The notes under the pieces are model-generated. The model made no database searches. It was not told the DNA's origin and saw nothing but the letters and a program-made list of their open reading frames with translations. This document shows, one piece after another, positions 15,631 through 59,656 of a DNA stretch of 64,000 nucleotides. Origin of the DNA: Haladaptatus sp. DJG-WS-42 (GTDB lineage Archaea; Halobacteriota; Halobacteria; Halobacteriales; Halococcaceae); NCBI RefSeq assembly GCF_037198285.1, contig NZ_CP147243.1, positions 930,001 to 994,000 of the forward strand, written 5' to 3'. The first letter of the stretch is position 1, and each line of letters begins with the position of its first letter. The translations under genes and the position numbers were made by a program.

Positions 15631-15683
15631 TGGGAACACAAACGACGCGGAGCCGTCATACATCCGTCGAACGCACCCGGCAC

Positions 15684-15690: not shown

Positions 15691-15715
15691 CGAGTTTGTC
15701 AGTATCTCCGTGATA

Positions 15716-28960: not shown

Positions 28961-29006
28961 TTTCTTCTCCCCCTTGTGTGGTGTCTCCCCGGACACCGGT
29001 CGTGTG

Positions 29007-29951: not shown

Positions 29952-30275
29952 TGTGGCCTCCCGACGAAGGTTCGGCAAGCGCGGCTAGCTGCGGAGCCAC
30001 GCGGAGTGCATTGCCTCTCATCATAGCAATACAGCGAATAGTAGCGTGATTGTTATATTCGGGCTATAATGCAGCAGCCTCAGCTTGAAATTGAAAACCA
30101 TACCTAATCGGACACGTCTGTCCAGTGAACGCATGACCGCCGTGTGGAACGATGCACGCACAGTCTCATACGGGCGCGAGGAGCCGATTGGAGTGTTATG
30201 AACGAACCGGGTAATCGGGCATTATCGGCCGGTAAACGCCGATTTCCCGTCTCGAATCGAGGGGTGAAAAGAGAG
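29952..30275. other. Intergenic gap with probable promoter of the epimerase unit
   Basis: The 324 bases between two minus-strand genes contain an AT-rich patch at about 30030-30070 that could hold a promoter. I see no gene or RNA structure in the rest. Confidence 0.45.
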
Positions 30276-37109: not shown

Positions 37110-38894
37110 ATGCCTGGGATCAGTTTGGTTCTCGGAAGTACGAACGAAGACGCCATGGAGTCAGCAGTAGACTCTGTTCGCTTCTTCGAGGACTACGACG
37201 TACGGATTGAGTGGATGAACGAGGAGACGGCCATTGGTTATTCTGGCTTTGCAGACTATCCCCTTACGCGTGTCGAAACCGACTCTGAGAGTGTCGTTCT
37301 TGAAGGGGATCTCTATGGGCAAGCAGATATCGAGTCCGTGCTCTCATACGTAGGACGCCTCGCTACAAATAATCGACACGAAGAACTTTCAGAGTGGGTG
37401 CGCGAGATCGACGGCGATTTTCTCATCATCGTCTACGACAAAACCCGCGAAGAGATTCACGTTATCAATGATGTATTCGCGCGTCTCCCAGTCTTTTACG
37501 CGACAGTCGGCGACGCACTCGTCGTCTCCCGCGAATTGAAGTTTGTCCGGACGTTTGCCGCCGAGTCTGGGACGCCTCTCGTGCTGAACCAGCTTGGTGC
37601 AGCCCAGCAACTTGCCTTTGGGTACTGCCTTGGCGACCAGACGCTCTTCGCTGGCGTCCGCTGTCTGCCTCCGGGAAGTCACCTCTCGATAGCCGACAGC
37701 TTCCATCTAGACCGCACCTACCAGCACAATTTCGACGGGCGAAACCACGCAGACAAGACAGTCGAAGAAAATGGTGCTACGCTCGCGTCGCTGTTCAAAA
37801 CGGCTGTGAGAAATCGCCATCGACCCGACGCAACGACCGTCCTCTCGCTCAGTGGTGGTCTCGACTCACGGGCGGTGGCGGGTGCCTGCATCGCCACACG
37901 GACGCCGTTCACCACGGCCACGTTCGACACCGGTAGCGATACCGAAAGCGACGACGCCCGTGTAGCGAGAATGATTACAGACAGCCTCGGCGTGGATTGG
38001 CACAGCTACAAGACGCAGACGACCGACGACGCGCGAGACAGGCTGCTTGACATGAAACAGGGCATGAACTACCTCGGAATGGCGTTCATCCTCAGCTTCT
38101 TTGACCAACTCCGCGAAGACTTCCCGCAGGCAACATACCTCACCGGCGATGGGGGGGACAAGGTGTTAGTTGATCTCACACCCGTCAAATCACTTTCCTC
38201 TACGGAAGCCCTCGTCGAGTACATCATCGAAGCGAACAGTCGCATCCCACTCGATGAGGCCGCTGCTATTGCCAATGTCACGCCGGCGTCGATCGTCGAA
38301 AGCGTCGAAGACCGGCTTGCTAGCTACCCAGAACAACAGTTCGCGCAGAAATACGTCCATTTCCTCATTCGGGAGCGAGGCATCAATTTCCTCAACCACG
38401 GTGAAGACCGAAATCGGTACTTCTTCTGGAGCGTTTCGCCGTTCTACGCACTGCCCGTGTTCGAGTACGCGATGAACTGTCCAGACGAACAAAAACAGGG
38501 ACAAGCGCTCTACAAGGCCTTCCTCGGGGAGTTCGCGCCCGAACTCATCGACATCGAATATCCGAACTTCGGCGCACCGATTACGTCACTTGAATATCGG
38601 GCAAAGCGATTCGTGTTCGACGTCCTCTCGCGGTACCCATCGCTCCGTCACACGGTCGTCAAACAGATGAAAGACAATGCGATCGCGAACAGCGCAGTTA
38701 CAGCGAAGATAGACGCGCAGCGTTCGACGGCCAACCTCGACCCGCTCGACACCGATGCGATTGGAGCGGTTACAGCTAATCCCGGTGCCTACCGACTAAT
38801 AGAGCTGAACTTCCTACTCACGCTAACCACCATTGTTTCCGAGATGCGAACTGTCACGAAACCCTCAGTGACGGGTTCACCAGCAGACGACTGA
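37110..38894 (+). CDS. Asparagine-synthase-like protein (amide formation on a polysaccharide precursor?)
   Basis: A 594-residue member of the asparagine synthase family. The N-terminal domain resembles the class II glutamine amidotransferase fold, but the chosen start (MPGISLV) lacks the catalytic Cys at position 2. The ATP-binding loop SGGLDS (248-253) and LTGDGGDK of the synthase domain are present. Genes like this in polysaccharide clusters amidate uronic acids, as proposed for WbpS in Pseudomonas. Because the Cys is missing, ammonia may come from another source, or the substrate may be another amine. The start at 37110 gives a family-like N-terminus; an alternative GTG-type start lies at 37035. 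It stands alone on the plus strand. Confidence 0.8.
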   Translation: MPGISLVLGSTNEDAMESAVDSVRFFEDYDVRIEWMNEETAIGYSGFADYPLTRVETDSESVVLEGDLYGQADIESVLSYVGRLATNNRHEELSEWVREIDGDFLIIVYDKTREEIHVINDVFARLPVFYATVGDALVVSRELKFVRTFAAESGTPLVLNQLGAAQQLAFGYCLGDQTLFAGVRCLPPGSHLSIADSFHLDRTYQHNFDGRNHADKTVEENGATLASLFKTAVRNRHRPDATTVLSLSGGLDSRAVAGACIATRTPFTTATFDTGSDTESDDARVARMITDSLGVDWHSYKTQTTDDARDRLLDMKQGMNYLGMAFILSFFDQLREDFPQATYLTGDGGDKVLVDLTPVKSLSSTEALVEYIIEANSRIPLDEAAAIANVTPASIVESVEDRLASYPEQQFAQKYVHFLIRERGINFLNHGEDRNRYFFWSVSPFYALPVFEYAMNCPDEQKQGQALYKAFLGEFAPELIDIEYPNFGAPITSLEYRAKRFVFDVLSRYPSLRHTVVKQMKDNAIANSAVTAKIDAQRSTANLDPLDTDAIGAVTANPGAYRLIELNFLLTLTTIVSEMRTVTKPSVTGSPADD

Positions 38895-39082
38895 GTTACG
38901 CGAAGTATTTTACGACGAAACCGGTTCAAACACAACGAAGAGCACCACTCGTTGAGCAGTGTTAGCCCAGACGTGACCGTCGCAGGGAATCAATAACAAA
39001 AGGCGAGGGCTGCGTCTGAACGACAAATGAACTGTATACACAACCACTGGAGCCAGCCTCGTCATCCAGTGTGGGGAGCACG

Positions 39083-40189
39083 ATGAAAGTCCTTTTCGAC
39101 GTGAACCACCCAGCGCACGTCCACCTGTTCAAACACGCCATCTGGGAACTCGAAGCGGACGGCGTGGAAGTGCTCGTCACCTCGCGGCACAAAGAGATGA
39201 CCACCGAGTTGTTAGACGCCTACGGCATCGACCACGTCCCGCTCTCAGGGCGACGACCCGGCACGCTTGGGCTGTTCGCAGAGTGGGCCATCCGCGAAGC
39301 TCGGATGCTGAACGTCGCCCGCAAGTTCAAGCCAGACGTGGTCGTTGGCCGACTCAATCCGCCGCTCGTCCACGTCTCGAAACTCCTCGGTGCGCGGAAC
39401 GTCATCGTCATGGACACGGAGATCAAGTCCGCGGCAATCGACCGTGCGTACTCAGTGTTGACACATCCGTTCATCGACGTCTACTGCACGCCACCGAGCA
39501 TCGAGCCGCCGACCGACCGCATCGACCACCACCTGATGGACTTCCAAGAGCTTGCGTACCTCCACCCGAACTACTTCACGCCCGACCCAAGCGTGCTCGA
39601 ACGCTACGGCGTGGCAGCGGACGATACCTACTTCGTCCTCCGATTTGCGGGCTGGGACGCCTTCCACGACGTGGGCTTTAACGGCATCTCACCTGCGGGA
39701 AAACGCGAACTCGTCGAGTATCTCGCCGCCCACGGCAACGTCTACATCACGAGCGAGGGGGACCTCCCCGACGAGTTCGCAGAGTACGCACTCCCGCTTC
39801 CGTCACACCTCGTCCACCACCTGCTCGCGTTCGCAGACCTCTATGTGGGCGACTCGGGCACGATGTCCTCTGAGGCCGCCATCCTCGGGACGCCCGCCAT
39901 TCGCGCAAGTTCAATGGTGAGCCACGACACAGAGAGCATCTTCTATGAACTCGAACACGAGTACGGTTTGATGTTCGCGTACGCAGACGAACAAGCGGCA
40001 CTCGAAAAGGCAAAAGCGCTGGTCGAATCGCCCGCGACCGAAGCCGAGTGGCACGCAAAACGCGAACGCCTCCTCGCAGAGAAGGGCGACGTGACGACAC
40101 AACTCGTAGACATCATCTGGGAGGCGGGAAACGCCGCGCGCCCCGCACCCGCAGACGCCACGCAGTCTACACCGGAGGCGCAGCTATGA
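39083..40189 (+). CDS. DUF354 GT-B-like protein
   Basis: A 368-residue protein of the DUF354 family, which has the GT-B fold of UDP-GlcNAc 2-epimerases and glycosyltransferases. Visible are MKVLFDVNHPAHVHLFKHA, VVVGRLNPPLVHVSKLLGARNVIVMDTE, FAGWDAFHD and the donor-site segment ADLYVGDSGTMSSEAAILGTPAIRAS. Many such genes occur in archaeal polysaccharide loci. Start taken at the ATG 39083; a GTG at 39071 adds four residues. Its end overlaps the start of the GT4 gene by four bases (ATGA), so the two are translationally coupled. Confidence 0.85.
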   Translation: MKVLFDVNHPAHVHLFKHAIWELEADGVEVLVTSRHKEMTTELLDAYGIDHVPLSGRRPGTLGLFAEWAIREARMLNVARKFKPDVVVGRLNPPLVHVSKLLGARNVIVMDTEIKSAAIDRAYSVLTHPFIDVYCTPPSIEPPTDRIDHHLMDFQELAYLHPNYFTPDPSVLERYGVAADDTYFVLRFAGWDAFHDVGFNGISPAGKRELVEYLAAHGNVYITSEGDLPDEFAEYALPLPSHLVHHLLAFADLYVGDSGTMSSEAAILGTPAIRASSMVSHDTESIFYELEHEYGLMFAYADEQAALEKAKALVESPATEAEWHAKRERLLAEKGDVTTQLVDIIWEAGNAARPAPADATQSTPEAQL

Positions 40190-41181
40190 CACAACAACTG
40201 CTCATGCCAGAAGACGACGCCGTACAGGACGACGAACAGCTCCGGGTACTGAATCTGGTGACGAGCCGCGAATCGACGTTCTTCAGACAACAGGTCCGCT
40301 CGCTCGAAGACCTCGGTGTCTCGTGTACGAACCTCGCCGTCTCCGCAAAGCGCCCAAAGACGAACGAGAAGACCGAAAACCGACCGGTCACCGACTACAT
40401 CCGATTTTTCGGAACCGCGACCAAGGAGTCGTTCGGCGAGTACGACCTCATCCACGCGAACTCTGGGCTGATTGCGCCTGCGGCGGTGTTCCAACCGAAC
40501 CTTCCCGTGGTCCTCTCGCTGTGGGGGTCCGACCTGATGGGGCGATTCGGCCCGATGAGCAAGTTCTGTGCCCGGCGCGCAGACGAGGTCATCGTCATGT
40601 CTGAAGAGATGGCTGAACTGCTCGACCAGGACTGCCACATCATCCCCCACGGCGTTGACACAGAGCGGTTCAAACCCATGGACAAAGCCGCCGCACGCGC
40701 CGAACTCGGCTGGAACCAAGACGAGACGTACGTGCTGTTCCCGTACGCGGCCTCGAAAGGCGTGAAAAACTACCCGCGCGCAGAGCGCGTGGTGGACGCC
40801 GTCCGCGACCAGTTCGACGGCACGCTCAACCTCCAGACGGTGTTTCGGGTGCCCCACGAGCAGATGCCCCTCTATATGAACGCCGCAGACGTGCTGTTGC
40901 TCACCTCACACAGAGAGGGGTCGCCAAACGCGACCAAAGAGGCGCTCTCGTGTAACACGCCCGTCGTCTCCGCGGCGGTTGGTGACGTGCGCGACCAGCT
41001 TCGCGGCGTCTCGCCATCCGCGGTGGGTGAAACCGACGAAGAACTCGTAGACGGCTTGCTCTCGGTGCTCGAATCGAAGCAAGAACCAAACGCCCGCGAG
41101 AAGGTGCTTCGGGAGATGAGCGCAGACCGAATGGGTGAACGTATCCACGACGTGTACGAACTCGCACTGGCGAAGCGATAA
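40186..41181 (+). CDS. Family 4 glycosyltransferase
   Basis: A cytosolic GT-B glycosyltransferase of 331 residues. The donor-binding C-terminal half has VFRVPHEQMPLYMNAADVLLLTSHREGSPNATKEALSCNTPVV in outline, with the E-x7-E pair. The acceptor half has DLIHANSGLIAPAAVF and IPHGVDTERF. Start at 40186 overlaps the DUF354 stop (ATGA). It converges with the polysaccharide deacetylase gene, with ten bases between. Sugar specificity unknown. Confidence 0.9.
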   Translation: MTQQLLMPEDDAVQDDEQLRVLNLVTSRESTFFRQQVRSLEDLGVSCTNLAVSAKRPKTNEKTENRPVTDYIRFFGTATKESFGEYDLIHANSGLIAPAAVFQPNLPVVLSLWGSDLMGRFGPMSKFCARRADEVIVMSEEMAELLDQDCHIIPHGVDTERFKPMDKAAARAELGWNQDETYVLFPYAASKGVKNYPRAERVVDAVRDQFDGTLNLQTVFRVPHEQMPLYMNAADVLLLTSHREGSPNATKEALSCNTPVVSAAVGDVRDQLRGVSPSAVGETDEELVDGLLSVLESKQEPNAREKVLREMSADRMGERIHDVYELALAKR

Positions 41182-41191
41182 CGACGGAAAA

Positions 41192-42136
41192 TCAGGAGGA
41201 CGTGACCGCACGGCTCGCGTCAGGCAACGTTTCTATCTGTTCATACAGGTCGCGTGGCGGGCCAATCCACGCGCCGAGTTCCTGTGCGTACTCGATGATG
41301 CGTTTGTAGAGTTCACCTTGCCCGGGGAAATCGCGGGCTGCAAACTTCATCGGGTGCCACAGAATCGTCATCACAGCCTTGTTTGCTGCGGCTTCGTCAA
41401 GCACGGCTTTGCACTCGCTCCACGCGTATTCGAAGTCCACGCCGGGGTCAGGAATGGCGTTCTCCATGAACGTAAGCGGGAACACCACGAAATCGTCGTC
41501 GAACGGGCGGACGATGTGGTAGCCGTGCTGGAAGCCGTACTCGCTGCTCGACCCGAGCGAAGCGTCGTATTTGAGGCCGAGGGCGGCGTGGTACTCCCAC
41601 GTCGTTGGAAGTTCGAGATTCAGGTAGTGCTGGCGGCCGCCCGTGATCTCGTGGCCGAGGATGGCTTCGAGCGTCTCTTTCTCGTAGGTGAGCCGCGCGA
41701 GGTCGGTCGGCGAGTCGTAGGAGCCGTGAATCCCGACCTCCCAGCCGCCGTCGTCTAAGCGGTGGATGACGTCCACGATGGCCGGGTCGGTAATCGCGTA
41801 GCGCCCGGCGTAGAGCTGCCAGCTTTTCGGTCTGAGCCACTCACGCGGGTGTTTGTCACCGAACAGGCGTTTTTCGTTGAGGAAGTAGAACGCAGAGCGC
41901 ACCCCAAGGTCGGCTTCGAGTTCCATGATGGTCTCGAACTGCCAGTAGGGGTTGTTCCCCGGCAACAGGGTCTTCAGGTGATACGGGTCACGGTTTTTGA
42001 GTGCGTAGTAGAGCGACTGGTAGCCTTTGTAGGGCCGGTCTACGTCGTGGGTGAGACAGAGCCAGAACGTCGGGTCGGTCGAGTTGCCGTCGGCACGCTC
42101 GGGGAGCGTCCGAGGTTGATGAGTCACGAACGTCAT
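41192..42136 (-). CDS. Polysaccharide deacetylase-like protein (NodB/CE4 fold)
   Basis: A 314-residue cytosolic protein with a CE4-type barrel. WLCLTHDVDRPY supplies the metal-binding and catalytic aspartates (motif 1), and VGIHGSYDS the His..Ser/Asp pair (motif 2). Late motifs are weaker but include ILWHPMKF, where the His is in the position of the catalytic base. No signal peptide is seen, so it would act on a cytosolic lipid-linked or nucleotide-linked sugar. Start chosen at 42136 (MTFVTHQP). A TATA-like GTATAACAA lies about 32-40 bases upstream. Confidence 0.8.
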   Translation of the reverse strand: MTFVTHQPRTLPERADGNSTDPTFWLCLTHDVDRPYKGYQSLYYALKNRDPYHLKTLLPGNNPYWQFETIMELEADLGVRSAFYFLNEKRLFGDKHPREWLRPKSWQLYAGRYAITDPAIVDVIHRLDDGGWEVGIHGSYDSPTDLARLTYEKETLEAILGHEITGGRQHYLNLELPTTWEYHAALGLKYDASLGSSSEYGFQHGYHIVRPFDDDFVVFPLTFMENAIPDPGVDFEYAWSECKAVLDEAAANKAVMTILWHPMKFAARDFPGQGELYKRIIEYAQELGAWIGPPRDLYEQIETLPDASRAVTSS

Positions 42137-42321
42137 TACACGTGTATATTCTGCGACACACACGCCTATTGTTATACGGTCAGTTCCCAGAGATCGGATT
42201 GAATTTAGGCGGCTGAGCGGTATCCGATCCGCAATTCAGCGCAGACTCGCGCTCGGATGATGCTGGTAAGAGACCCATAACAAAACGCGAAGGGAGATAA
42301 TCAAAACCAAGACAACCAGCT

Positions 42322-44214
42322 ATGAGCGTTATCACTCGAACGTTGCGAATACGAGGAACGATAGAGGCGTCTTCGACTCAGGTGCGCGCCAGTAAACTCG
42401 CCCTGGCTGTGGGATTTATCGCGTTCTGGGTTGCGGTCGTTGCAGCCTACAACGCACCTGCAACAGCCTACGAACTCTCGATTTACGCCGCAACACCTGA
42501 TCAATTCTGGGCTGGCATCGCTACTGCAGTCGTCCTCGGGCTGCTCGTTGCATGGTTTGTAGCGCCCGAAAATGGCTTACGAAACCTCGCAATTGCACTC
42601 GTCGTCGGATCCATCCTCGCGGTTGCTGCACTCCCTATCATACGTGGCTATTTCTTTCTCGGTGCAGGAGACTCGCTCACACACCTCGGCTGGATGAAAG
42701 ATATCGCAAATGGCGTTCTCAACCCGCTAAACTTCCTTTATCCGGGAATTCACACTTCCACGGTGTTCATCGAGCGCGTGACCGGGATGTCGCTAGAGCG
42801 GGCAACGCAGTTCCTCGTCCTCTCTTACCTCCTCGTGTACGTGACGTTCGTCGGACTCACGGTCCGGCTCATTGCGAAAACCAAGTATGCATTGCTTTTC
42901 GGGCTGTTATCAGGACTGCTCGTTTTGCCGATAAACAACATCAGTGTCCACCTGATGGCCCACCCCAGCACGGAAGGGATTTTCTTCCTGCCATTGGTGC
43001 TCTACGCGACGTTCCGCTATCTCACCAAACCAGCAGAACCATTCAGAGTCTGGCGACTTCCAATAACGTCCTCGGCGGTCGTGCTCGCAGTGGTTCTCAC
43101 TGCGATCTTACTGATTCACCCACAAGTGACGGGGAACGTCATTCTCATCTTTGGGTCGATTTCGTTCATGCAGCTTGCATTCCGTCAATTGCGCAGTGAA
43201 CACCCCCTCAGTCAGCACCGGGCGCTCTTTGGACACACCATCTACCTCATCACCATCTTCTTGCTGTGGGCGCCACGAAACCCCCGCACGACGAATACAA
43301 TCGACACGTTAACGAACGCCATCCTCTACGGCGTGTCCTCAGGGAGTGCAATCGCGCAGCGTGGCTCAACGCTCACCGAGCTTGGTGGCAGTCTCCCAGA
43401 ACTGTTCTTCAAGCTGTTCTTGCTCAGCCTCGCGTTCGGGATTCTCTCTGGGATGGTCATGCTACTGAGCCTCGGTCGAAAGTTCGCGCGGGAGTATCCC
43501 GTCGGCGATGGGATTGTCAAATACCTCACTATTTCGATGGTGCCACTGTTCGGGATGTTCCTGCTGTTCTCGATTCTGCAGGGATCCACCCAACGTTTCC
43601 GCTACATCGGTTTCGTCATGGTGTTGCTCACGATTCTCGGCGCAGTCATGCTCTCGTGGGGCTTCGACTGGCTCTCACAGCGGACGACGGGTACTCGTGT
43701 GTTGCGAGCAGGCGTCGTCATCGCGTTCCTGTTGATGTTACCGCTCAGCACGATGACGATATTCTCTTCGCCGTTCATCTATCAGCCCACACAGCACGTG
43801 AGCGAGGCAACATTCAACGGCTACGAGACTGCCTTTGAGTACCAAGATTCGTCGATTCCGTTTACGGGCATTCACAGCGGGCCATCGCGATACGTCCACG
43901 CAATCTACGGCTCTCCATTCACCAACGAAGAGGAAATCGTTCCAGGAGCAAAAGCGGAAGTGCCAAACGCTGGATTCGCAGTAGGCAATCTGACGACATA
44001 CTATTCGTCTGATCGGTACATCATCTACTCAGATTCGACGGAGCAACGAGAGTTAGAACTCTACGAAGGCCTCCGCTATCCTGCGGTCGGTTTCACTGCC
44101 CTTGAGACGACCTCGAGAATCGACCAAGTCCACTCCAATGGAGAGGTTCGCGTCTACCTACTGCACCCGAATACAGCGCCTAACGTGACCGAGAATTCGA
44201 CGGTGACAACGTAA
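42322..44214 (+). CDS. GT-C-like polytopic membrane protein of lower GC
   Basis: A 630-residue membrane protein with about twelve helices and a soluble C-terminal part of about 130 residues. A short acidic motif after the second to third helices (FFLGAGDSLTHLGWMKDI) could be the GT-C catalytic loop, and YPGIHTSTVFIERVTGMSL follows. Similar haloarchaeal proteins are listed as membrane proteins of unknown function in surface loci. Codon usage shows more A/T in third positions than in the genes to its left, and the next two genes share this. It is probably a glycosyltransferase or ligase using a polyprenyl-linked donor. Confidence 0.72.
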   Translation: MSVITRTLRIRGTIEASSTQVRASKLALAVGFIAFWVAVVAAYNAPATAYELSIYAATPDQFWAGIATAVVLGLLVAWFVAPENGLRNLAIALVVGSILAVAALPIIRGYFFLGAGDSLTHLGWMKDIANGVLNPLNFLYPGIHTSTVFIERVTGMSLERATQFLVLSYLLVYVTFVGLTVRLIAKTKYALLFGLLSGLLVLPINNISVHLMAHPSTEGIFFLPLVLYATFRYLTKPAEPFRVWRLPITSSAVVLAVVLTAILLIHPQVTGNVILIFGSISFMQLAFRQLRSEHPLSQHRALFGHTIYLITIFLLWAPRNPRTTNTIDTLTNAILYGVSSGSAIAQRGSTLTELGGSLPELFFKLFLLSLAFGILSGMVMLLSLGRKFAREYPVGDGIVKYLTISMVPLFGMFLLFSILQGSTQRFRYIGFVMVLLTILGAVMLSWGFDWLSQRTTGTRVLRAGVVIAFLLMLPLSTMTIFSSPFIYQPTQHVSEATFNGYETAFEYQDSSIPFTGIHSGPSRYVHAIYGSPFTNEEEIVPGAKAEVPNAGFAVGNLTTYYSSDRYIIYSDSTEQRELELYEGLRYPAVGFTALETTSRIDQVHSNGEVRVYLLHPNTAPNVTENSTVTT

Positions 44215-44243
44215 CTTCTGCATAACAATATGACACACCACGG

Positions 44244-44251
44244 TATAAAAA
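44244..44251 (+). promoter_or_regulatory. TATA box of the alkaline-phosphatase-superfamily gene
   Basis: TATAAAAA ends 27 bases before the ATG at 44279. This is one of the clearest TATA boxes in the window and supports that start and a leaderless transcript separate from the GT-C-like gene upstream. Confidence 0.6.
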
Positions 44252-44278
44252 TCAAGAACACGCGAAAATGCGGTTCCG

Positions 44279-45907
44279 ATGTTCCACAAACAGAGTCAGA
44301 ACCCAACGCAGTCACTCATCATGAAAACAAATACTGAACTGAACTCGAGAGCATTCGTTCTCGGACTAGACGGGGTACCGTGGGATTTGCTAGAAGAATG
44401 GGTTGGAGCGGGGGAGCTCAAGCACTTTGGAACGGTGATGCGAGAAGGGACGGCAGGTCCGCTCACGAGCACAGTTCCAGCAACGACACCACTCGCGTGG
44501 CCCTCGATTGCAACGGGCGTCAGACCCGATAAACACGGTATCTACGGGTTCCGCCGGCTCACGGAAAACTACACGCATCAGGTGTACACTGGCAACGACG
44601 TGAAACAGCCTGCACTCTGGGAGATGCTCTCACCGGCTATCGTTGGGAATGTGCCGATGACCTACCCGGCGCGTGAAATCAACGGAACCATGGTCGCCGG
44701 GATGATGACGCCACAGATTGGTGAGGGGTTCACCTACCCTCAGTCTCTCAGCGACGAGATTACGACCCGGATTCCAGATTACCAAATCGCTCTCGATTGG
44801 AGCCAGTATCTGAACTCGAAAGATGAATTCCTGCCAGATTTGAACGCTCTCGTCCAGAATCGCAGAGAGTTGATGCGTCTGCTCATGGCAGACGATGACT
44901 GGCGGCTGTTCTTCTTCGTGTACACGGCCCCAGACCGCCTCCAACACATCATCTGGGAAGAGGACATCCTCCTCGAACACTACCGGTACTTAGACGATAT
45001 CCTCGGTGAGGTCATGGCGTACGTCGAGGATCACGATGCGACGCTATACATCGTCTCCGACCACGGCTTTGGCCCCATCGAGAAGAAAGTCGCAGTCAAT
45101 CGCGTACTCGCAAACGAGGGGCTGCTCACCCAGCGAAAGCAAAAGGGTGTCCGTGGAACACTCTCGAAGCTTGGAATCACCAAAGACGGCGTGATGGGTG
45201 TGCTATCCCGGCTTGGCATCGACGACGAGATGGTCGTCGATCACCTCCCGCAATCGGTGACGGCGCAGGTTGCAAAACAAATCCCCGGTGCACACTTCCT
45301 GTTCGATGTCGACCACGCGAACACGACGGCCTTCGTCTACTCGTTCGGTCACGTCTATGTAAACGACACGCGGAGATTCGAACAGGGAATCGTCGATCCG
45401 ACAGAAATTCCGGCGGTCAAGCGCCAGCTCAGGTCGGTGTTCGAAGGGCTCACCGACCCTGAGACTGGCGAACATGTCTTGCGAGTGACCGATGGTACAG
45501 TGGAGTACCCCACGGATCCGACTGCACCAGATCTCATCGTCGAGCCACTCCCGCGGTACGATATCGCAACGGCACTCTCAGAGGAGGTCTTCACGCCGAC
45601 ACCAATGGCAGGAAACCACCTACCAGAAGGAATCTTCCTCGCGTGGGGTTCCGACATCGCTGCCGGCAGTCAGCCAACCGACGCAACTGTCTACGACGTT
45701 GCACCGACCGTCCTCCACGGGCTCGGCGAAGCGATTCCCGATAATACCGATGGACGAGTCCTCCGTGAAATCTTCACGCTCAAATCCATTCCCGCAACGG
45801 CCGAAATACGCGAAAAAGCGTACGCCAAAGGAGAGGTCATTGCGACCGTAGATGAGGATTTCTCCGATGTGGAGAATCGTCTCCGTGGGCTCGGCTACAT
45901 TGAGTAA
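44279..45907 (+). CDS. Alkaline-phosphatase-superfamily phosphodiesterase/phosphotransferase
   Basis: A 542-residue metalloenzyme of the nucleotide pyrophosphatase/phosphodiesterase group. The first metal Asp is in FVLGLDGVPWDLL, the nucleophile Thr lies in STVPATTPLAWPSIATG, the HGIYGF segment follows, and the second metal site shows as YIVSDHGFGPIEKKVAVN; a final His is in TPMAGNHLPEG. No signal peptide is visible in the first 40 residues. Such proteins accompany archaeal surface glycan genes and may act on phospho-sugar or phospho-lipid intermediates. Lower GC links it to the neighbours at 42.3-47.3 kb. An in-frame ATG at 44321 is an alternative start. Confidence 0.85.
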   Translation: MFHKQSQNPTQSLIMKTNTELNSRAFVLGLDGVPWDLLEEWVGAGELKHFGTVMREGTAGPLTSTVPATTPLAWPSIATGVRPDKHGIYGFRRLTENYTHQVYTGNDVKQPALWEMLSPAIVGNVPMTYPAREINGTMVAGMMTPQIGEGFTYPQSLSDEITTRIPDYQIALDWSQYLNSKDEFLPDLNALVQNRRELMRLLMADDDWRLFFFVYTAPDRLQHIIWEEDILLEHYRYLDDILGEVMAYVEDHDATLYIVSDHGFGPIEKKVAVNRVLANEGLLTQRKQKGVRGTLSKLGITKDGVMGVLSRLGIDDEMVVDHLPQSVTAQVAKQIPGAHFLFDVDHANTTAFVYSFGHVYVNDTRRFEQGIVDPTEIPAVKRQLRSVFEGLTDPETGEHVLRVTDGTVEYPTDPTAPDLIVEPLPRYDIATALSEEVFTPTPMAGNHLPEGIFLAWGSDIAAGSQPTDATVYDVAPTVLHGLGEAIPDNTDGRVLREIFTLKSIPATAEIREKAYAKGEVIATVDEDFSDVENRLRGLGYIE

Positions 45908-45991
45908 CGCTTCCGAGCCCTAAATGACCGCAGTCTTTCACTTTTCGGTTAGCTTCGCAATAACAATACGAGCACTCACGCTAGTAACGCT

Positions 45992-47344
45992 ATGACCTCG
46001 AGAGCGGGGTATCGACCGAGTCGACGCGATGTGCTTCGGCTTGGCTCTGCAGCACTGGCAGGTGCACTTGCCGGGTGCTCTCTTTCTAACACCAATAGCG
46101 GCGAAACGACAACTCCGTCTGGAAAGCAATCAGACGCGCCCCTTTCACCTGATGGGGCAATGGCGTATACGAACGACCAGTTCGAGACGGTCATCAATAT
46201 GGTTTCAGATGCCGGTGCAGACCCATCTGGACAAACCTCGATTCTACCGCTCCTCAAGGAGTATGCAGGCGATGACACTGTGTTGTACTTCCCGAGTGGA
46301 AGATATCTGATGGATGACTTATGGGCGTTCCCAGCGTTCTCGAATTTCGGTATCGTTGGCGAGCCGGCGACGATCGTTCCCCCCAAAGGGTACAACAGGT
46401 ACTTGTTCAATATCGGGTCGGTAGAGGATGCATCGGGAACCGGTTTTTTGTTTGAAAATATACATTTCGACTTTCGTGCGAAAGCTACTGCACCGCGACC
46501 GATTCAGGTCGCGGTCACGGACGGTCTCGTCGTTCGTGACGTAATCGTAATGGGATTATCCGGAACGGTTCGCTTCGATGTGACCACTGAAACGGGAGCA
46601 GGTGTCATAGAGCGCTTGCGAGTTCCCGATGGTGGAAAAGAGCCCAATCCAACAGGGCTTCTTATCAGTCCAGAAAACCGTGGTGAGTTGACGATTACCG
46701 ACTGCCACATCGCTGGGTTCCCGGGAAACGGACTCTATGCCTCCGGTTCGGTTGGGCCAATAAACGTGATTGGGGGATCCTATTTCAACAACGGCATTGC
46801 CAACGTTCGCGTTAGTAGCCCCGCCGTCGTTCGTGGCGTCCATGTTCGCTGTGATCGCGCCCCTGAAGGGTTTCGGAATATGCGGGGGATTCGACTCCGT
46901 GATGGTGATTCCGTGCTGGTCGAAGACTGTACCATCGAGATGATTGACGTTACCTACAGCGAGGGCGCCATTGTCATCGAACCGCTGATGAAATCAGCAA
47001 TCATACGGAATACGGACATCCTCACGACAGCGGATAACGTTCTCGGAATCAACGCAAAAACGCTCGAAACGCCGGATGAAACAGCACGTATTCTGTGCGA
47101 GAACGTCAAGATTTTCGGGTCGGCACAAAACGATGCCGCGATTCGGATTGTCGACCGAGATAATTGCGTCTTCGAGAACCTCAGTATCGTCCAGTCCGGT
47201 GCCAACAGAGACGGTGTCCAATTGCTTCGTTCGAATAATGCGATTATTCACGACGCGACGATTTCGGTGACGCGAACTCCAATCCTCGTCGAGGAATCGA
47301 CTGGGCTCAACGTCAAGAACGTGACCACTTCTCCCCCGAGATGA
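45992..47344 (+). CDS. Tat lipoprotein with right-handed beta-helix
   Basis: A 450-residue surface lipoprotein. SRRDVLRLGSAALAGALAGC gives a Tat motif and a lipobox (C29). A Thr/Ser-rich spacer leads to a parallel beta-helix domain whose rungs are seen as repeated short strands: GLVVRDVIVMG, GELTITDCHIAG, SVLVEDCTIEM, SAIIRNTDIL, NCVFENLSIVQ and NAIIHDATISV. The GADPSGQTSILPLLKEYAGDDTVLYFPSG stretch in outline is the cap typical of pectate-lyase-3-like proteins. It should bind or depolymerise surface glycan. Same strand and composition as the two preceding genes. Confidence 0.85.
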   Translation: MTSRAGYRPSRRDVLRLGSAALAGALAGCSLSNTNSGETTTPSGKQSDAPLSPDGAMAYTNDQFETVINMVSDAGADPSGQTSILPLLKEYAGDDTVLYFPSGRYLMDDLWAFPAFSNFGIVGEPATIVPPKGYNRYLFNIGSVEDASGTGFLFENIHFDFRAKATAPRPIQVAVTDGLVVRDVIVMGLSGTVRFDVTTETGAGVIERLRVPDGGKEPNPTGLLISPENRGELTITDCHIAGFPGNGLYASGSVGPINVIGGSYFNNGIANVRVSSPAVVRGVHVRCDRAPEGFRNMRGIRLRDGDSVLVEDCTIEMIDVTYSEGAIVIEPLMKSAIIRNTDILTTADNVLGINAKTLETPDETARILCENVKIFGSAQNDAAIRIVDRDNCVFENLSIVQSGANRDGVQLLRSNNAIIHDATISVTRTPILVEESTGLNVKNVTTSPPR

Positions 47345-47401
47345 CGCGTGGAGACTCGTTTTTCGAGGCGGTCTATGGTTCCGTGTTGCGGCGCTGAGAC
47401 G

Positions 47402-48931
47402 CTACTCTTCTACGGACGCTGGCAAGTAGTTTCTGAGGAAGGTGAGTTCCTTCCCAATCGACTTCTCGATGAATTCTAAGAACACGGCGTCCTCGGGCTG
47501 GAGGCAGCCAGCGAGCGTGATGACGACGAGTTCTGCGAGGCCGATGCCGATGACGAAGGCGACGAACGTGAGCGGCGTGAGCGTCATCACCGTCGAGAGC
47601 AGGTAGGCAATCGGTCCGAGGACGAGCGGCACCACGAGATAGGTAGTGACGGTGATACGCGAGAACGGCGTGATGCCGAATTTCACGTGTAAAATGATGG
47701 AGACGACGGTGTTGCGGGCGACGTAGGCGGCCGTGGTGGCGACTGCTGCGCCCACGAAGCCGTAGCGCGGAATCAGGTAGACGTTCAACAGCAAGTTGAG
47801 CGTGAGCGTGATGATGTCCGCGAACAGCATGTGGGTCGTGTAGCCGAGTGCGGCGAGCGTCGTACGGTTGTGGCCCATCGCGGCGTCCGTGAGGAAGCCA
47901 AGCGAGAGGATGGTGAGCGCGAGGCCTGCAGGGGCGTATTCGGGCGAGAAGAACATCGTGAGCAGCTCACTTGAGAAGATGAACACGGCAGCGAACGCCG
48001 GGAAGGAGGCGATAAAGCCCCACTTGGTCGTCACCCGGTAGATCGAGGAGATGTCCTCGTAATTGCCCTCAGAGTCGAGCCGCGAGACGATTGGCAAGTA
48101 GAGGTAGCCAAACGCGGAGACGAACAGCATGAGGCTGCTCGCAAGCGGGTAAGCGGCGTTGTAGAGCCCAACCTCCGCAGAGCTGCGGAAGAAGCCGACC
48201 ATGAGCGTGTCCATCTGCGTGAGCAACACGGTCAGGAACATCGCAAGCGTGAGCGGAATCGAGTAGGCGACGATTTCGCGGGTGTGGGTTTTCACCGGGC
48301 CGAACAGCGGGACGAGCCGGTTTGCGAAGTAGTGGACGACGAACAGCCCAAGCACCGAGGCGATGGCGTAGGCGTAGCCAACGGCGATGATGGAGAAGCC
48401 AGCAGCGAGAATCCCGATGAGTAAGAGTAGCCGGACACCGGGGCGGATGAGGTCTTCTGCGTAGAATTTGTACTTCGTGTTCTCCATGCCTCGGAGGAAG
48501 CCAACCCCGATGTTGACGCCGACGTTCACCGGGATGAGGAGGATAAAGATGGTGAGAAGGTCTGTTGAGACGGCGTCGTCGAACAGGTACGTCGTGAGGA
48601 GGTCCATGTTCAAAATGAGCGCCACTGCCATGAGCACGCTCGTCACCATCGACGCGAGCAAGCCAACGAGCCACACGCCCCTAATTTCCTTGGGGTCGTC
48701 GTAGCGCGAGACGAACCGTGGCATCCCGTGGTTGAGGCCGATAAGCGAGATGGTCAGCCCAACCGAGAGGATTGCGAGCCCGAGGGTCACCTCGCCGTAG
48801 ACGGCAGGTGTGAACGTTCGGGCGATGACGATGCGCTCTGCGAATCGGGATATCGAAGAGAGTCCGACTCCGAGGAAGATGAGCGCCGAACTCGCGAGGA
48901 GCGCTAAGAGGTTATCATTCTTTGCAGACAT
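47402..48931 (-). CDS. Wzx-like polysaccharide/oligosaccharide flippase
   Basis: A 509-residue MOP-superfamily protein with about fourteen membrane helices, expected to move polyprenyl-linked glycans across the membrane. The N-terminus (LLALLASSALIFLGVGLSSISRF) is followed by FTPAVYGEVTLGLAILSVG, typical of the PF01943/polysaccharide synthase group, and by GLNHGMPRFVSRY. Start at 48931 (MSAKNDN). Haloarchaeal AglR-type flippases look alike, but identity is not shown. High GC again, unlike the three genes to its left. Another candidate flippase, an ABC protein, lies at 62404. Confidence 0.88.
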   Translation of the reverse strand: MSAKNDNLLALLASSALIFLGVGLSSISRFAERIVIARTFTPAVYGEVTLGLAILSVGLTISLIGLNHGMPRFVSRYDDPKEIRGVWLVGLLASMVTSVLMAVALILNMDLLTTYLFDDAVSTDLLTIFILLIPVNVGVNIGVGFLRGMENTKYKFYAEDLIRPGVRLLLLIGILAAGFSIIAVGYAYAIASVLGLFVVHYFANRLVPLFGPVKTHTREIVAYSIPLTLAMFLTVLLTQMDTLMVGFFRSSAEVGLYNAAYPLASSLMLFVSAFGYLYLPIVSRLDSEGNYEDISSIYRVTTKWGFIASFPAFAAVFIFSSELLTMFFSPEYAPAGLALTILSLGFLTDAAMGHNRTTLAALGYTTHMLFADIITLTLNLLLNVYLIPRYGFVGAAVATTAAYVARNTVVSIILHVKFGITPFSRITVTTYLVVPLVLGPIAYLLSTVMTLTPLTFVAFVIGIGLAELVVITLAGCLQPEDAVFLEFIEKSIGKELTFLRNYLPASVEE

Positions 48932-49122
48932 ATTCTGACAGCTGACACCGGTTTCTCGCGGGACCATCGGTCGCACGCGACAGCTGGTGTGGGCACTGTA
49001 TGGCTAGATACACTCCGATTCCACATTTCGTTATTCGTCGGCTACCAGCGACAGTCAGGATTGTTTCAGCCGTTACCGGCCGCCAAACGGTCGAAGAAGG
49101 CGGTGTCGAGCAAAACAGGCGC

Positions 49123-50268
49123 TCAGCCGAACAGCCGTTCGCAATACGACATGTTCCAGCCGAGTGGGTTCACGAGCGCCGCCTCGATGCCCGGCCGTGT
49201 GGGGTCAAGCCCGCCGAGCGGGCAGACGAGGAACGACGACGCTTCGACGAACTTCGAAAGCGGGTAGGAGTTCCAACGGGCGAAGCCGTGGGCTGCGAGG
49301 ATGCGGTGGGGGATGACGTTCCCCGTTGCGCTGATGTGGTCGACGAAGTCGAACTCCGAGGTGAGCCGCGAGAGAAGACACGAGAACGCCGCTCCGAGTT
49401 CGAAGCCGCCTGCGAGCGGCAGGATTTCAGTTAGGTGTGCGGTTGTTGGTCCAGCAGTGGTCGGTTTGAAGCCAACGACGATGGCCGCCTCTCGCACGCC
49501 ATTGCGACTCGCAGAGTACATGACGAACTCTGTATCCGGCTCTGCAAACCGCCAGTTGTAGAACGTTGCATCGCGGCAGATGTGTGGCTGGTCTGTGTGA
49601 ACCGTCGCACAGATTTCGAGGAGGATGTCCGTCCGAACCGAGTCGTGGCGCGTGACGATGATGTCCTTGTCCGTGAGCTTGAGCATGTCCTGTACCCGGT
49701 TTTTGAGCATGCCAACTGGGTTTGCCACCTTCGCACCGAACTGGAGGGCTGGCGGATGGTCGTCGGTCGTAAACGCCGTGAAATCGTGAATCCGCTCGTA
49801 CTTGTCGAACTGGCCGAGGTTGTGGTGGGTCCACCGCTCGTCGTTCATCTTCATCATGCCCCGGCGAGAGGGCTCGTTCGCGTAGGTAAACGTCGCGGCG
49901 TAGTCGTCCCAACACTCGTCTCGCATCCACTCGTACATCTTCGTCATCAGCCCTTGGCGGCGGTGGTCTGGGTGGACCATCAGGTCGATGAGCTGGAGCG
50001 CCATGACGGTCTGGTCGCCGACCTGAATCGGGAGGGGTAACACCGGCCGAAAGCCACCTATCTCGCCGTCTTTCTCCGCAACGATGATGGGAACGAAATC
50101 GACGTATGGAAGCTGTTTGTACTTCCACGCGAACCACTCTGGCGTACAGCCGCTGAACGCGAGGTCATACAGGTCGAGAAACGCCTCCCGGTCTGTGTCT
50201 TCGTACCATCTAATTGAATAATCGCCGCTCGTGGAGTCGAGACTCGATGCCGTACGTGGGACGGACAT
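49123..50268 (-). CDS. GNAT family N-acetyltransferase, paralogue A
   Basis: A 381-residue acetyl- or acyl-transferase. The acetyl-CoA loop is DLMVHPDHRRQGLMTKMYEW. Other marked segments are IRWYEDTDREAFLDLYDLAFSG, EWFAWKYKQLPY, PIIVAEKDGEIGGFRP, FYNWRFAEPDTEF and the tail WNMSYCERLFG. A second GNAT-like half seems to follow, so it is longer than a simple GNAT. It probably N-acylates an amino sugar. It is clearly paralogous to the gene at 52745-53887, with which it also shares an upstream motif. Confidence 0.85.
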   Translation of the reverse strand: MSVPRTASSLDSTSGDYSIRWYEDTDREAFLDLYDLAFSGCTPEWFAWKYKQLPYVDFVPIIVAEKDGEIGGFRPVLPLPIQVGDQTVMALQLIDLMVHPDHRRQGLMTKMYEWMRDECWDDYAATFTYANEPSRRGMMKMNDERWTHHNLGQFDKYERIHDFTAFTTDDHPPALQFGAKVANPVGMLKNRVQDMLKLTDKDIIVTRHDSVRTDILLEICATVHTDQPHICRDATFYNWRFAEPDTEFVMYSASRNGVREAAIVVGFKPTTAGPTTAHLTEILPLAGGFELGAAFSCLLSRLTSEFDFVDHISATGNVIPHRILAAHGFARWNSYPLSKFVEASSFLVCPLGGLDPTRPGIEAALVNPLGWNMSYCERLFG

Positions 50269-50296
50269 ATAGGGGAACGTTCTGTTGGAACCGGAA

Positions 50297-50315
50297 TAAG
50301 AATGAATTTCCTAAC
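50297..50315 (-). promoter_or_regulatory. Conserved inverted-repeat element upstream of GNAT A
   Basis: On the plus strand TAAGAA-TGAAT-TTCCTAA(C) forms an inverted repeat with one mismatch. It begins 29 bases before the ATG and resembles the element in front of the second GNAT gene. Confidence 0.5.
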
Positions 50316-50431
50316 GAATGAGGGGTTGAATGGGAAAGAAGAGCTTAATCGACCGCAGTAACCCGCGTGTCGAGAATCGGGTACCGGACAGACACGACGG
50401 GCACTCCGTCGTTCGTTTTGTCAGCCGACAT

Positions 50432-51235
50432 TCACGAGTGGCGACCCGCCCGCACGTAGTAAACGCCCTCTCGACTCCCCGCGGGCGTTCCAAGGTTCGT
50501 GAGGGTGAATCCGGCGTCCGTGAGGAACTGTTCGACCTCCTCGACCGTCGTCCCGTAGCGTTGTGGGCACTTTTCGGTGTGGAGTTCTGCGTAGATGAGG
50601 GAAACGTCTGCGAGCGCCGCGCCCATTCCTTCGAGCACTTTCAACTCCGCGCCTTGGACGTCGATTTTCAAGACGGTGGGTGCTGGAATCCCCTCGGCGA
50701 TGGCCGTCTCGCCGCGGCGACACTCGACTGACAGCCAGCCGTCGGGAGCGAGATAGTGGTGGCCAGCCCCCGCCTCTGTGCCCTTCGCACGGTCGTCTGC
50801 GGACGCCAGCCGTCCGGGCCCGTCTTCGTCTGAGAGCGCAACCGACGTGGTTTGCCATCGCTCTGCGGGGGCGTTTGCTTCGAGGTTGGCGCGCAGTCGG
50901 GCTTCGTTCACTGGCTCCGGTTCGAAGCCGACGACGACGCCGGAGGTGAGTTTGTTCGCGATGAAACAGGCGTAGATGCCAACGTTTGCCCCAACGTCCC
51001 AGACGACTTCGTCGCCGTCGAGTTCGGCAAGGAGTGCCGAGAGAATTTCTTCTTCACCAAACAGCGTCGTCACCCGCTGGTATTCGAGCAGCGATGTGGT
51101 CGCAAACTCGGCGGTGACGTCGCCAACCTGACCGCGATGGCGCCACCCCTTCGGGGCAGCCCGCACCAGCAGGTAGCTTTTTCGGGCGAGCGGGGCGAGA
51201 CCCGCGGCCTCGACGAACTGCCAGACCCGGCTCAT
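50432..51235 (-). CDS. FkbM family methyltransferase
   Basis: A 267-residue SAM-dependent O-methyltransferase. The SAM motif is VVWDVGANVGIYAC (DVGANVG at 80-86), then GFEPEPVNEARLRANLEAN, and TVLKIDVQGAELKVLEGM carries the second conserved acid. FkbM proteins often methylate sugars in surface glycans. Its ATG overlaps the TGA of the ATP-grasp gene by four bases, so the two are coupled and may act one after the other on the same glycan. Confidence 0.9.
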   Translation of the reverse strand: MSRVWQFVEAAGLAPLARKSYLLVRAAPKGWRHRGQVGDVTAEFATTSLLEYQRVTTLFGEEEILSALLAELDGDEVVWDVGANVGIYACFIANKLTSGVVVGFEPEPVNEARLRANLEANAPAERWQTTSVALSDEDGPGRLASADDRAKGTEAGAGHHYLAPDGWLSVECRRGETAIAEGIPAPTVLKIDVQGAELKVLEGMGAALADVSLIYAELHTEKCPQRYGTTVEEVEQFLTDAGFTLTNLGTPAGSREGVYYVRAGRHS

Positions 51236-52521
51236 CGGTCGTAGACGGAGATACCTTTCTTCCGGTTCGACCGCACTTTAAGCGAGCGCGGGATGAGCCC
51301 GAAGAAGGGCAGCGGGTCATCGAGGTTGAGGAACACATCGCGCGTCGTGAAAAACGACGTAGTGAACGGGATGAGTGCTTGATATTGGTTGCGCGAGAGT
51401 TGCTCTCGCAGCCACATGATGTCCGTGTAAAACAGCTTTCGCTGTTTGACGTCAGTTCGGTAGTCTGGCTCCGGAAGCGTCTGCCAGTTGGCGACATTGA
51501 CGCCGCCGCTCGTTGCCATGATGGGTTGTTCGATGGAGGGGGGCTCGAAGGGGAACTGGCCGGTCAACTGCTTGTAATGGAGCCATGGCACGTCAACACC
51601 GCTGTTTATCGTGAGCGCGAGCGACCCCCAGTAGCGGCCGTTGACCTCAAGCAGGTAGAAGTCGCCGTCGGGCATCTTCATGAACTCGACGTGTACTGGC
51701 CCGTTCCAGTCGAGCGCCCGGACGATTTCGTCTGCGTAGACTTTCATCCGTGGCTCCCACGTCCCCTGTCTGACCGCGCCGATACCGCCAGAGGGCGGAT
51801 AGACGCGATATTTCTTGTGCTGGAAGAACGTCACCAACTTGCCTTCGTGCGCGAGGCCGACCGTCGCCATCGTCTCCACACCGTCTACGAACTCTTGGAC
51901 AAGTGGGTACTCGAACTGGCGTCCCGACCACTTGCCGATAATCTCCTCGAAGCGTTCGACGAGGTCTTCGTCGGGGCCGACGTAGTTGACCCCCGACATC
52001 CGATTGGTCGTAGACTGGCCGCTGTCGGTGGTGAACGTCGTCCGGCGGGGTTTGATAACGACCGTGTAGTCGCGTTCGTCGTCTATTTTCGCCACCTCTT
52101 CGAGCGACTGGGGCGAGAACGTCTTCGGGCTCGGGATTGGGAGCCCTTCTGCCAGCTCGAACAACCGCTTTTTGTCGTTCGCGTTGAGGTGGGTTTCCCA
52201 GTCCTCAGCGCCGACTTTCGTCCCCGTCGATTCGAGTCGCTCCTTGTGTCGCGACAGAACCGTGGTCATCACGTCCGTTACGGGGAACACAGCCGCGTAG
52301 TCATTCGTGGCTAAATGGTCGTACAGATGGTCAACAAATGCAGTTTGGTCTGCTGAAACGTCTGGATAAATGTACGACCCCTCAGTGTACTTAGAAAGCA
52401 TGCCGGGCAGGTATTTTGTGTAGCCACCCGAAACCACTGAAACCCCCTTCTCCCCAAGCGTCCGACACAACGCCAGTGAATTCGGCCCTTGTCCATCAAG
52501 GACGAGAACTTTGTGTCCCAT
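51232..52521 (-). CDS. ATP-grasp carboxylate-amine ligase
   Basis: A 429-residue ATP-grasp enzyme joining a carboxylate to an amine (or a related nucleophile) with ATP. The N-terminal KVLVLDGQGPNSLALCRTLGEKG is the pre-ATP domain; DYTVVIKPRRTTF supplies the ATP-binding lysine; YPLVQEFVDG, and the metal-binding LLEVNGRYWGSLALTI lie in the C-terminal half. Similar genes sit in haloarchaeal and actinobacterial polysaccharide loci, but no substrate is known. It precedes the FkbM gene (four-base overlap), so the two form an operon. A uronic acid carboxylate is a reasonable but unproved substrate. Confidence 0.88.
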   Translation of the reverse strand: MGHKVLVLDGQGPNSLALCRTLGEKGVSVVSGGYTKYLPGMLSKYTEGSYIYPDVSADQTAFVDHLYDHLATNDYAAVFPVTDVMTTVLSRHKERLESTGTKVGAEDWETHLNANDKKRLFELAEGLPIPSPKTFSPQSLEEVAKIDDERDYTVVIKPRRTTFTTDSGQSTTNRMSGVNYVGPDEDLVERFEEIIGKWSGRQFEYPLVQEFVDGVETMATVGLAHEGKLVTFFQHKKYRVYPPSGGIGAVRQGTWEPRMKVYADEIVRALDWNGPVHVEFMKMPDGDFYLLEVNGRYWGSLALTINSGVDVPWLHYKQLTGQFPFEPPSIEQPIMATSGGVNVANWQTLPEPDYRTDVKQRKLFYTDIMWLREQLSRNQYQALIPFTTSFFTTRDVFLNLDDPLPFFGLIPRSLKVRSNRKKGISVYDR

Positions 52522-54341: not shown

Positions 54342-54447
54342 GAGAAAGAGGACGCGACCCCACCAAATCGGCTGAATAACACTCCCCCTCAGCTGAGCGG
54401 TTGGATACTCGAAGCTTTTTAGCATACTTACAGGAGTGTGTGGTGTA

Positions 54448-55434
54448 ATGCAAATTCTCGTGACAGGTGGCGCTGGCTTCATCGGTGGTCACCTCGCAGA
54501 GCGGTTCGTGCGTCGTGGCCACGCGGTGACGGTACTCGATAATTTTGACCCGTACTACAATGTGGAAATCAAAGAGCACAACGTACAAGCAGGATGTGAC
54601 GCAGCAGAGGCAGGGAATGGCTCCTACGAACTCATCGAAGGCGATGTCCGCGACGACTCTCTCGTCGCTGAGCTCGTCTCCGACGTAGATTACGTCTACC
54701 ACCAAGCCGCACAGGCAGGTGTCAGGACGAGTGTGAAAAAACCAAAAAAGCCCAACAGCATCAACGTGGCTGGGACGATGAACGTGCTCGATGCGGCTCG
54801 TAACGCAGACATCGAACGCGTCGTTCTTGCGAGTTCGTCGTCGGTGTACGGCAAGCCAGAGTATCTCCCCTACGACGAAGGCCACCCAACAACGCCCGTG
54901 AGTCCCTACGGGGTTTCGAAACTTGCAGGTGAGCAGTACGCGCGGGTGTACAACGAAGTGTACGGGCTCCCAACAGTTTCACTTCGCTATTTCACCGTAT
55001 ACGGGCCGCGAATGCGCCCGAACATGGCCATCTCGAATTTCGTTTCTCGGTGTATCAACGGCAACCCACCGGTGATTTTTGGCGACGGCAGTCAAACGCG
55101 CGACTTCACCTATATCGACGACGTGTTCGCCGCAAACGAGGCGCTCTTAGAAACTGATGCTGCGGATGGCGAGATTCTCAACATCGGGAGTACGGACAAT
55201 ATCGACATCAAATCCCTCGCTGTCGCGGTGCGAGACCAACTCGCACCCGACCTCGACCTCCAGTTTGGCGAGCGCAACGACGCTGATGCAGAACACACGC
55301 ACGCTAACATCTCGAAGGCACACGACCTGATTGGCTACGAGCCAACAACGACGATTCGAGAGGGCGTCGAGCAGTTCATTGGCTGGTATCAAGACAACCG
55401 CGAGTGGTACGAACCGCTCGTGTTGTCGTCGTAA
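54448..55434 (+). CDS. NAD-dependent sugar-nucleotide epimerase (UDP-glucuronate/UDP-glucose 4-epimerase-like)
   Basis: A 328-residue extended SDR enzyme on a nucleotide sugar. It shows ILVTGGAGFIGGHLAERF, DNFDPYYNVEIKE, YHQAAQAGVRTSV, ASSSSVYG, the catalytic YGVSK, LRYFTVYGPRMRPNMAISNF and DGSQTRDFTYIDDVF. The QAGVR and RYFTVYGP(R)M(R)PNMA motifs are common in UDP-glucuronate 4-epimerases, which suggests UDP-galacturonate production, though UDP-glucose epimerases are close. Start at 54448; four residues more are possible from 54436. It converges with the TrmB-like regulator. Confidence 0.88.
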   Translation: MQILVTGGAGFIGGHLAERFVRRGHAVTVLDNFDPYYNVEIKEHNVQAGCDAAEAGNGSYELIEGDVRDDSLVAELVSDVDYVYHQAAQAGVRTSVKKPKKPNSINVAGTMNVLDAARNADIERVVLASSSSVYGKPEYLPYDEGHPTTPVSPYGVSKLAGEQYARVYNEVYGLPTVSLRYFTVYGPRMRPNMAISNFVSRCINGNPPVIFGDGSQTRDFTYIDDVFAANEALLETDAADGEILNIGSTDNIDIKSLAVAVRDQLAPDLDLQFGERNDADAEHTHANISKAHDLIGYEPTTTIREGVEQFIGWYQDNREWYEPLVLSS

Positions 55435-59416: not shown

Positions 59417-59656
59417 CAGGTGAATAGACGATGATACGTTGGATAAAGCGGGTCGCTGAGTCTCAGCGAATGAGATTGGGAGCACGGCACAACGCGCGGG
59501 AATTGCCGTACGAAATCGCAAGAAAGCCAACCGAGTACAACATTCCGTGAAGGTCAGGAGCTGATTCAATATTAGGTAATTCGTGAAAATTAGAGCACCT
59601 GACCGGTCACGTCACATACACAGAATTTATGCTTTCTGAGTGCAGTTTAGTTGACA

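Follow-up and report, generated by a model that had tools for sequence, protein, structure and literature searches.

The window analysed here is a 64,000-nt stretch of Haladaptatus sp. DJG-WS-42 (NZ_CP147243.1, positions 930,001-994,000, forward strand). It contains a gene for an asparagine-synthase-like ligase (AsnB-like, 37110-38894, +), which stands among genes for glycan synthesis. On its left lie a GT2 glycosyltransferase (27923-29188, −) that is kept in related AsnB loci, an NAD-dependent sugar epimerase/dehydratase (29007-29978, −) conserved with the locus (80% in the same-genus genome G016), a FemAB/VimA-type GNAT protein (30276-31280, −; PF13480, weak TIGR03019 match) and a secreted beta-helix-like repeat protein with a Tat-type signal (34809-36776, −). 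On its right follow a DUF354-type glycosyltransferase-like protein (39071-40189, +), a GT4 glycosyltransferase (40048-41181, +) whose true start is probably downstream of 40048, a deacetylase with a weak VimE-like match (41192-42163, −; 46 bits against a cut-off of 440), a multi-pass membrane protein that is conserved in sister loci and is a possible Wzy-like polymerase (42322-44214, +), a type I phosphodiesterase that is a recurrent partner (44279-45907, +; PF01663), a right-handed beta-helix protein of the epimerase/lyase-like fold class (45992-47344, +) and a Wzx-type flippase (47402-48976, −). Further on, the window encodes an FkbM-family methyltransferase (50432-51235, −), an ATP-grasp ligase (51232-52521, −), an NAD-epimerase/dehydratase (54436-55434, +), an alginate-lyase-domain protein (56707-58023, +; PF05426) and an exopolysaccharide polyprenyl glycosylphosphotransferase (59651-61099, +; TIGR03025, just above the cut-off). 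Since glycosyltransferases, flippase, polymerase-like protein, glycosylphosphotransferase, deacetylase, FemAB-type GNAT, phosphodiesterase, beta-helix and alginate-lyase-domain genes occur together, the region is a Wzx-type haloarchaeal surface or exo-polysaccharide locus.

Two groups of genes that a preliminary description had used to predict uronic acids do not belong to this locus. The genes aglM (18029-19321, −) and aglF (19411-20148, +), cited for UDP-glucuronate synthesis, are present, but they adjoin aglB (15488-18028, +) in a separate cluster (15.5-20.1 kb) that is set apart from the glycan locus by malic enzyme-PTA and MFS genes; the distance to the AsnB-like gene downstream is 17-19 kb. 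Both agl genes were therefore ruled out as members. The epimerase at 54436-55434 had been called UDP-glucuronate-type. It scored below every equivalog cut-off (TviC, LegB, GalE), so this label cannot be assigned. It was also rejected as a locus member because the syntenic loci of two same-genus genomes have no ortholog of it (best matches 41 and 38%).

The AsnB-like protein itself was correctly recognised in the preliminary description. It matched PF00733 with 49 bits and GATase_7 with 26.5 bits, and its ATG at 37110 is backed by an M-P-G start that is conserved among its relatives. Pfam and NCBIfam searches, family alignments, AlphaFold and Foldseek were used to place it in what we call the 'MPG' family. 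A dead class-II glutaminase domain occupies residues ~1-200, followed by an ATP-PPi synthetase domain at ~215-580. The AlphaFold model (pLDDT 93.7) shows the full two-domain AsnB fold, and its best Foldseek matches were TsnB9, beta-lactam synthetase, carbapenam synthetase (CarA) and AsnB, at a low identity of 11-17%. By profiles and fold the protein is thus a member of the AsnB-fold superfamily. When either ligase was searched on its own against PDB sequences, the matches were weak, and this changed only with the use of profiles. Against TIGR03108, the XrtA-PEP-CTERM amidotransferase, the protein scored 61.7 bits, where the cut-off is 816.9. Both ligase frames, AsnB-like and ATP-grasp, are open and conserved in the same-genus genome G017, at 87 and 93%, respectively, and are therefore not chance reading frames.

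The active site was then compared across the family, with residue counts taken from 52 aligned members. Reference for the glutaminase residues was the E. coli AsnB from NC_000913.3, aligned by hhalign. A cysteine nucleophile at position 2 was found in none of the 52 proteins; instead, 44 have Pro, five Val and three Ala. Pro is also found at this position in nearly all other readable N-termini of the family, archaeal and bacterial, and would possibly be exposed after removal of the methionine. The Cys1 of E. coli AsnB aligns with the Pro of the AsnB-like protein, Arg49 falls in a gap, Asn74 is replaced by Glu and the Asp98 segment is unconserved. Judged from these residues, the family is glutaminase-dead and should be incapable of hydrolysing glutamine by the known mechanism. 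AsnB-like enzymes that form uronamides are known, WbpS (PGN_1234) in P. gingivalis and WbqG in E. coli O121 (PMC7468200). Since the catalytic cysteine and the other glutaminase residues are missing family-wide, the MPG proteins are not amidotransferases of the WbpS/AsnB type, and a glutamine amidotransferase of the WbpS kind was rejected for the window.

The ATP pyrophosphatase loop is kept: the S, G, G, D and S of SGGLDS are invariant. The extended motif SGGLDSR as well as Gly3 and D121 are invariant or nearly so, and GDGGDK is mostly retained. The residues D433, R434, R436 and K462 are retained in 49-50 of the 52 members, in archaea and bacteria alike. For the catalytic Lys449 of AsnB, the aligned residue K499 is found in 25 members only, and K462, present in 49, is displaced.

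Further AsnB-like paralogs were seen in the genome of DJG-WS-42 at C1:877406-880940 and 2729558-2733207, none with a cysteine at position 2; they begin with M-K-K-E-L-F-G, M-V-G or M-N-T-E-L-F-G. The paralog at 877406-880940 adjoins a GlmS-like protein that starts with M-C-G. An AsnB-like protein starting with M-T-G (5933-7747, −) was also seen in another genome (G190), with FemAB-type and GlmS-like genes nearby and an ATP-grasp relative in the same region.

The AsnB-like family is present in 50 of the 392 genomes of the class. A GTDB scan found it also in Cloacimonadota, Zixibacteria, Bacteroidota, Chlorobiota, Planctomycetota, Nitrospirota and Desulfobacterota-type bacteria, and outside the haloarchaea in the archaeal Nitrososphaerales, Thermoplasmatales and Methanoculleus. 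A quick tree placed the window protein as sister to that of Halomarina rubra within a supported haloarchaeal group. Glycosyltransferase or Wzx genes lie within the fetched flanks in 54 of 77 named loci. Of the 47 loci outside the haloarchaea, 15 have Wzx directly beside the AsnB-like gene, and in the haloarchaeal loci the commonest immediate neighbour is a secreted beta-helix gene of the 34809-36776 cluster (13 of 30 loci); since contigs were often short, all these neighbour counts are lower bounds. Several Natrialbaceae loci, for example that of Natronococcus jeotgali (12585-13820, −), have near the AsnB-like gene a class I/II aminotransferase that might supply an amine donor. What is new here is this cross-domain, glutaminase-dead and polysaccharide-linked family with its M-P-G signature.

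To see how the gene behaves within the genus, the locus was compared with those of G017 and G016, where the block is syntenic. G016 has some parts in duplicate and, of the genes discussed here, all but two: the AsnB-like gene and the 54436 epimerase. As the locus thus persists in G016 without the AsnB-like enzyme, the latter is an accessory, optional component.

The second ligase shows a different distribution. As described before, the ATP-grasp gene (PF15632, PRK12767/PRK06849-like) is coupled to the FkbM gene (TIGR01444, 95 bits, above the cut-off), and the two overlap by 4 bp. The motif residues K157, E210, E279, E292 and N294 are each found in 90% or more of 34 ATP-grasp relatives; the relatives with a solved structure are carbamoyl-phosphate synthase-like proteins and biotin carboxylases. 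FkbM and ATP-grasp genes are retained in all three same-genus genomes and in Halomarina, whereas the AsnB-like gene is not. The pair stands beside an AsnB-like locus only in the genus of the window and in Halomarina (Halomarina rubra); most other ATP-grasp relatives have varied neighbours, often outside glycan loci, and no FkbM. Across the 392 genomes, ATP-grasp was found in 36 and the AsnB-like family in 50, with both in five, where 4.6 are expected. The proposed joint action of the two ligases was therefore rejected: their co-occurrence is at the chance level and G016 lacks one of them, even though both meet in the same locus again in Halomarina. Taken with the other neighbours of most ATP-grasp relatives, this means that the two genes have partly unrelated partners in other genomes. 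We regard the ATP-grasp/FkbM pair as a separate optional decoration. Of the claim that two enzymes could cap a carboxylate, the amide-ligase folds or motifs were confirmed; the AsnB-like protein, however, lacks the residues for a glutamine-fed amidation.

Whether the polymer contains uronic acids was approached through related loci. A WbpA-like NDP-sugar dehydrogenase is encoded in five AsnB loci that have most of the window genes, namely those of Halomarina rubra, Halegenticoccus soli, H. tardaugens, a genome designated G114 and Natrarchaeobius. In Halomarina, two species of Halegenticoccus and G114, the WbpA-like protein (58-60%) occurs together with the deacetylase and FemAB genes, and the Halomarina rubra locus also has WbpB-, WbpE- and WbpD-like genes. 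Since these sister loci combine the same glycosyltransferases, flippase, deacetylase and FemAB with the dehydrogenase, the polymer probably has an (amino)uronic acid. In DJG-WS-42 itself, a sister polysaccharide locus that has no AsnB-like gene carries WbpA-, B-, E- and D-like and WecB-like genes at 2.084-2.090 Mb. Amino-uronates, GlcNAcA and GlcNAc3NAcA, are found in the acidic exopolysaccharides of Haloferax mediterranei and H. denitrificans (PMC3191746). With the sister loci, the Wbp set and these polymers, a uronate-containing product is reasonable, and the alginate-lyase-domain gene and the secreted beta-helix genes within the locus give further hints. The surface uronate glycan of the preliminary description is hence plausible, with better support from the amino-uronate (Wbp-type) genes of the sister loci than from aglF and aglM.

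The sister locus with the Wbp set (C1:2070001-2092000) also holds phosphodiesterase and beta-helix genes, and GlcNAc3NAcA or ManNAc3NAcA is predicted from it. A third sister locus at C1:884122-899811 has a TviB-like UDP-GlcNAc 6-dehydrogenase with GT2, DUF354, GT4, Wzx and beta-helix genes.

The genes, the family, the missing glutaminase residues, the fold, the synteny and the accessory status are established here; a uronate substrate, an amide product and an amine donor of the AsnB-like enzyme are what we infer. Our tentative reading, to which we give somewhat less than an even chance, sees in the AsnB-like protein a ligase from a glutaminase-dead family that serves as an optional decoration enzyme in a probable (amino)uronate polysaccharide locus, with ATP-grasp and FkbM forming a separate decoration. 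Most likely, the enzyme would use ATP to activate a carboxylate, probably one of the lipid-linked or growing glycan, and would couple this to ammonia or an amine supplied by the solution or by a partner enzyme, not to ammonia from hydrolysing glutamine itself. Beta-lactam synthetase and carbapenam synthetase work in a similar manner: their glutaminase site is unused, a carboxylate is activated with ATP and an internal amine is joined. The window protein would share with them an AsnB fold that operates without glutamine; unlike it, they act on small antibiotic precursors outside any polysaccharide setting, and their identity to it is 12-16%. TsnB9, the trichostatin hydroxyamidotransferase (7YLZ), gave the best full-length Foldseek match (TM ~0.7), but belongs to another pathway and is 14% identical. 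An activity comparable to the proposed one is described for the C-terminal amidoligase of Cj1438, which forms an amide on the glucuronic acid carboxylate of a polymer, with ATP, after polymerisation and with an amine other than ammonia, albeit in a bacterial capsule, that of Campylobacter (PMC11800397).

Several points weigh against this proposal. A uronate-activating gene is absent inside the window's own locus, and about 70 of the 77 family loci have no recognisable uronate dehydrogenase within ~10 kb. Without a clear invariant counterpart of Lys449, the ligase chemistry of the AsnB-like protein is itself uncertain, as judged from the alignment. A different carboxylate may serve as the substrate, for instance that of a pyruvyl, lactyl or amino-acid substituent. 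No amide has been reported for haloarchaeal polysaccharides in the literature found, and the Haloferax polymers, which contain the amino-uronates that Wbp-type genes would give here, have no amide described. That the AsnB-like enzyme acts on the uronate glycan is what we infer; amidation of the glycan at the window locus is unproven. A more specific version appears doubtful to us: here, an uncurated cross-domain AsnB-fold family with Pro in place of Cys would decorate surface polysaccharides without the use of glutamine, by coupling the carboxylate of a uronate in a lipid-linked or growing glycan with ammonia or an amine, and the product would be the first known hexuronate amide of the haloarchaea. 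If it holds, many genes annotated as 'asparagine synthase' in archaeal and bacterial polysaccharide loci are not glutamine-dependent, and the N-terminus, M-P-G or M-C-G, is a simple signature that separates the two types. The beta-lactam-synthetase way of working would then extend to surface glycans, and one would expect haloarchaeal surfaces to carry uronates that are neutralised or capped with an amine, with consequences for charge and salt balance, phage binding and biofilm. The sister locus without AsnB in the same genus makes the proposal testable.

The AsnB-like protein may also have lost amide formation altogether and serve as a structural or regulatory protein, as an adenylating enzyme that forms no amide, or as an organiser of the flippase/transferase complex. 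The unconserved Lys449 position, the divergence of the synthetase half in the fold matches and the frequent direct adjacency to a Wzx flippase would fit such a role, but the SGGLDSR loop and the residues D433, R434, R436 and K462 point by their conservation to catalysis, and we consider it unlikely. Another possibility places the amide with the ATP-grasp/FkbM pair, which would add an amino acid to a uronate and methylate the neighbouring sugar, the AsnB-like gene being unrelated. A precedent exists in Methanococcus, in whose N-glycans threonine is bound as an amide to a uronate (ManNAcA6Thr) and the terminal sugar is methylated by the methyltransferase MMP1085; the threonine-adding enzyme was unidentified at the time (PMC2952790). 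With this precedent, the pair may have an aminoacyl-uronate role, which agrees with the intact ATP-grasp motifs and with the retention of the pair, but not of the AsnB-like gene, in all three same-genus genomes and Halomarina. The Methanococcus glycan of archaellin and S-layer resembles the proposed product as an archaeal uronate with an amino acid amide and a methylated neighbouring sugar, yet it is N-linked and from a methanogen, and most relatives of the ATP-grasp protein are found in loci that are not comparable, with no FkbM gene beside them. We think this explanation quite unlikely. Aminoacyl-uronate glycans are already known in Archaea, although none was found reported for haloarchaea.

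Least probable is the amidation originally suggested, in which an enzyme of the WbpS/WbqG type converts a hexuronate to a hexuronamide with nitrogen from glutamine and the ATP-grasp ligase attaches an amino acid to this uronate or a different one. The setting is similar: WbpS, WbqG and the TIGR03108 proteins are two-domain AsnB-type proteins of surface-glycan loci and make a non-essential decoration, next to a flippase and glycosyltransferases, and the deacetylase and FemAB-type genes of our locus parallel VimE and VimA. The recurrence of both ligases in Halomarina also agrees with it. The analogy nevertheless fails at the missing N-terminal Cys and glutaminase residues, at a score of 62 bits against the 817 of TIGR03108, and at the chance-level co-occurrence of the two ligases, so that we judge this explanation improbable.

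Some smaller features of the window were also noted. Two frames overlap the epimerase gene at 29007-29978 (−): that of the GT2 gene and, on the opposite strand, a long spurious one (28890-30026, +). The secreted protein at 34809-36776 (−) has a Thr-rich linker and ~3 repeated C-terminal domains, and it is duplicated in G016. Outside the locus, the match to SAMP1 (ubiquitin-like) at 6164-7120 (−) covers only residues 228-318 of the 318-residue frame, which is probably over-extended at its start.

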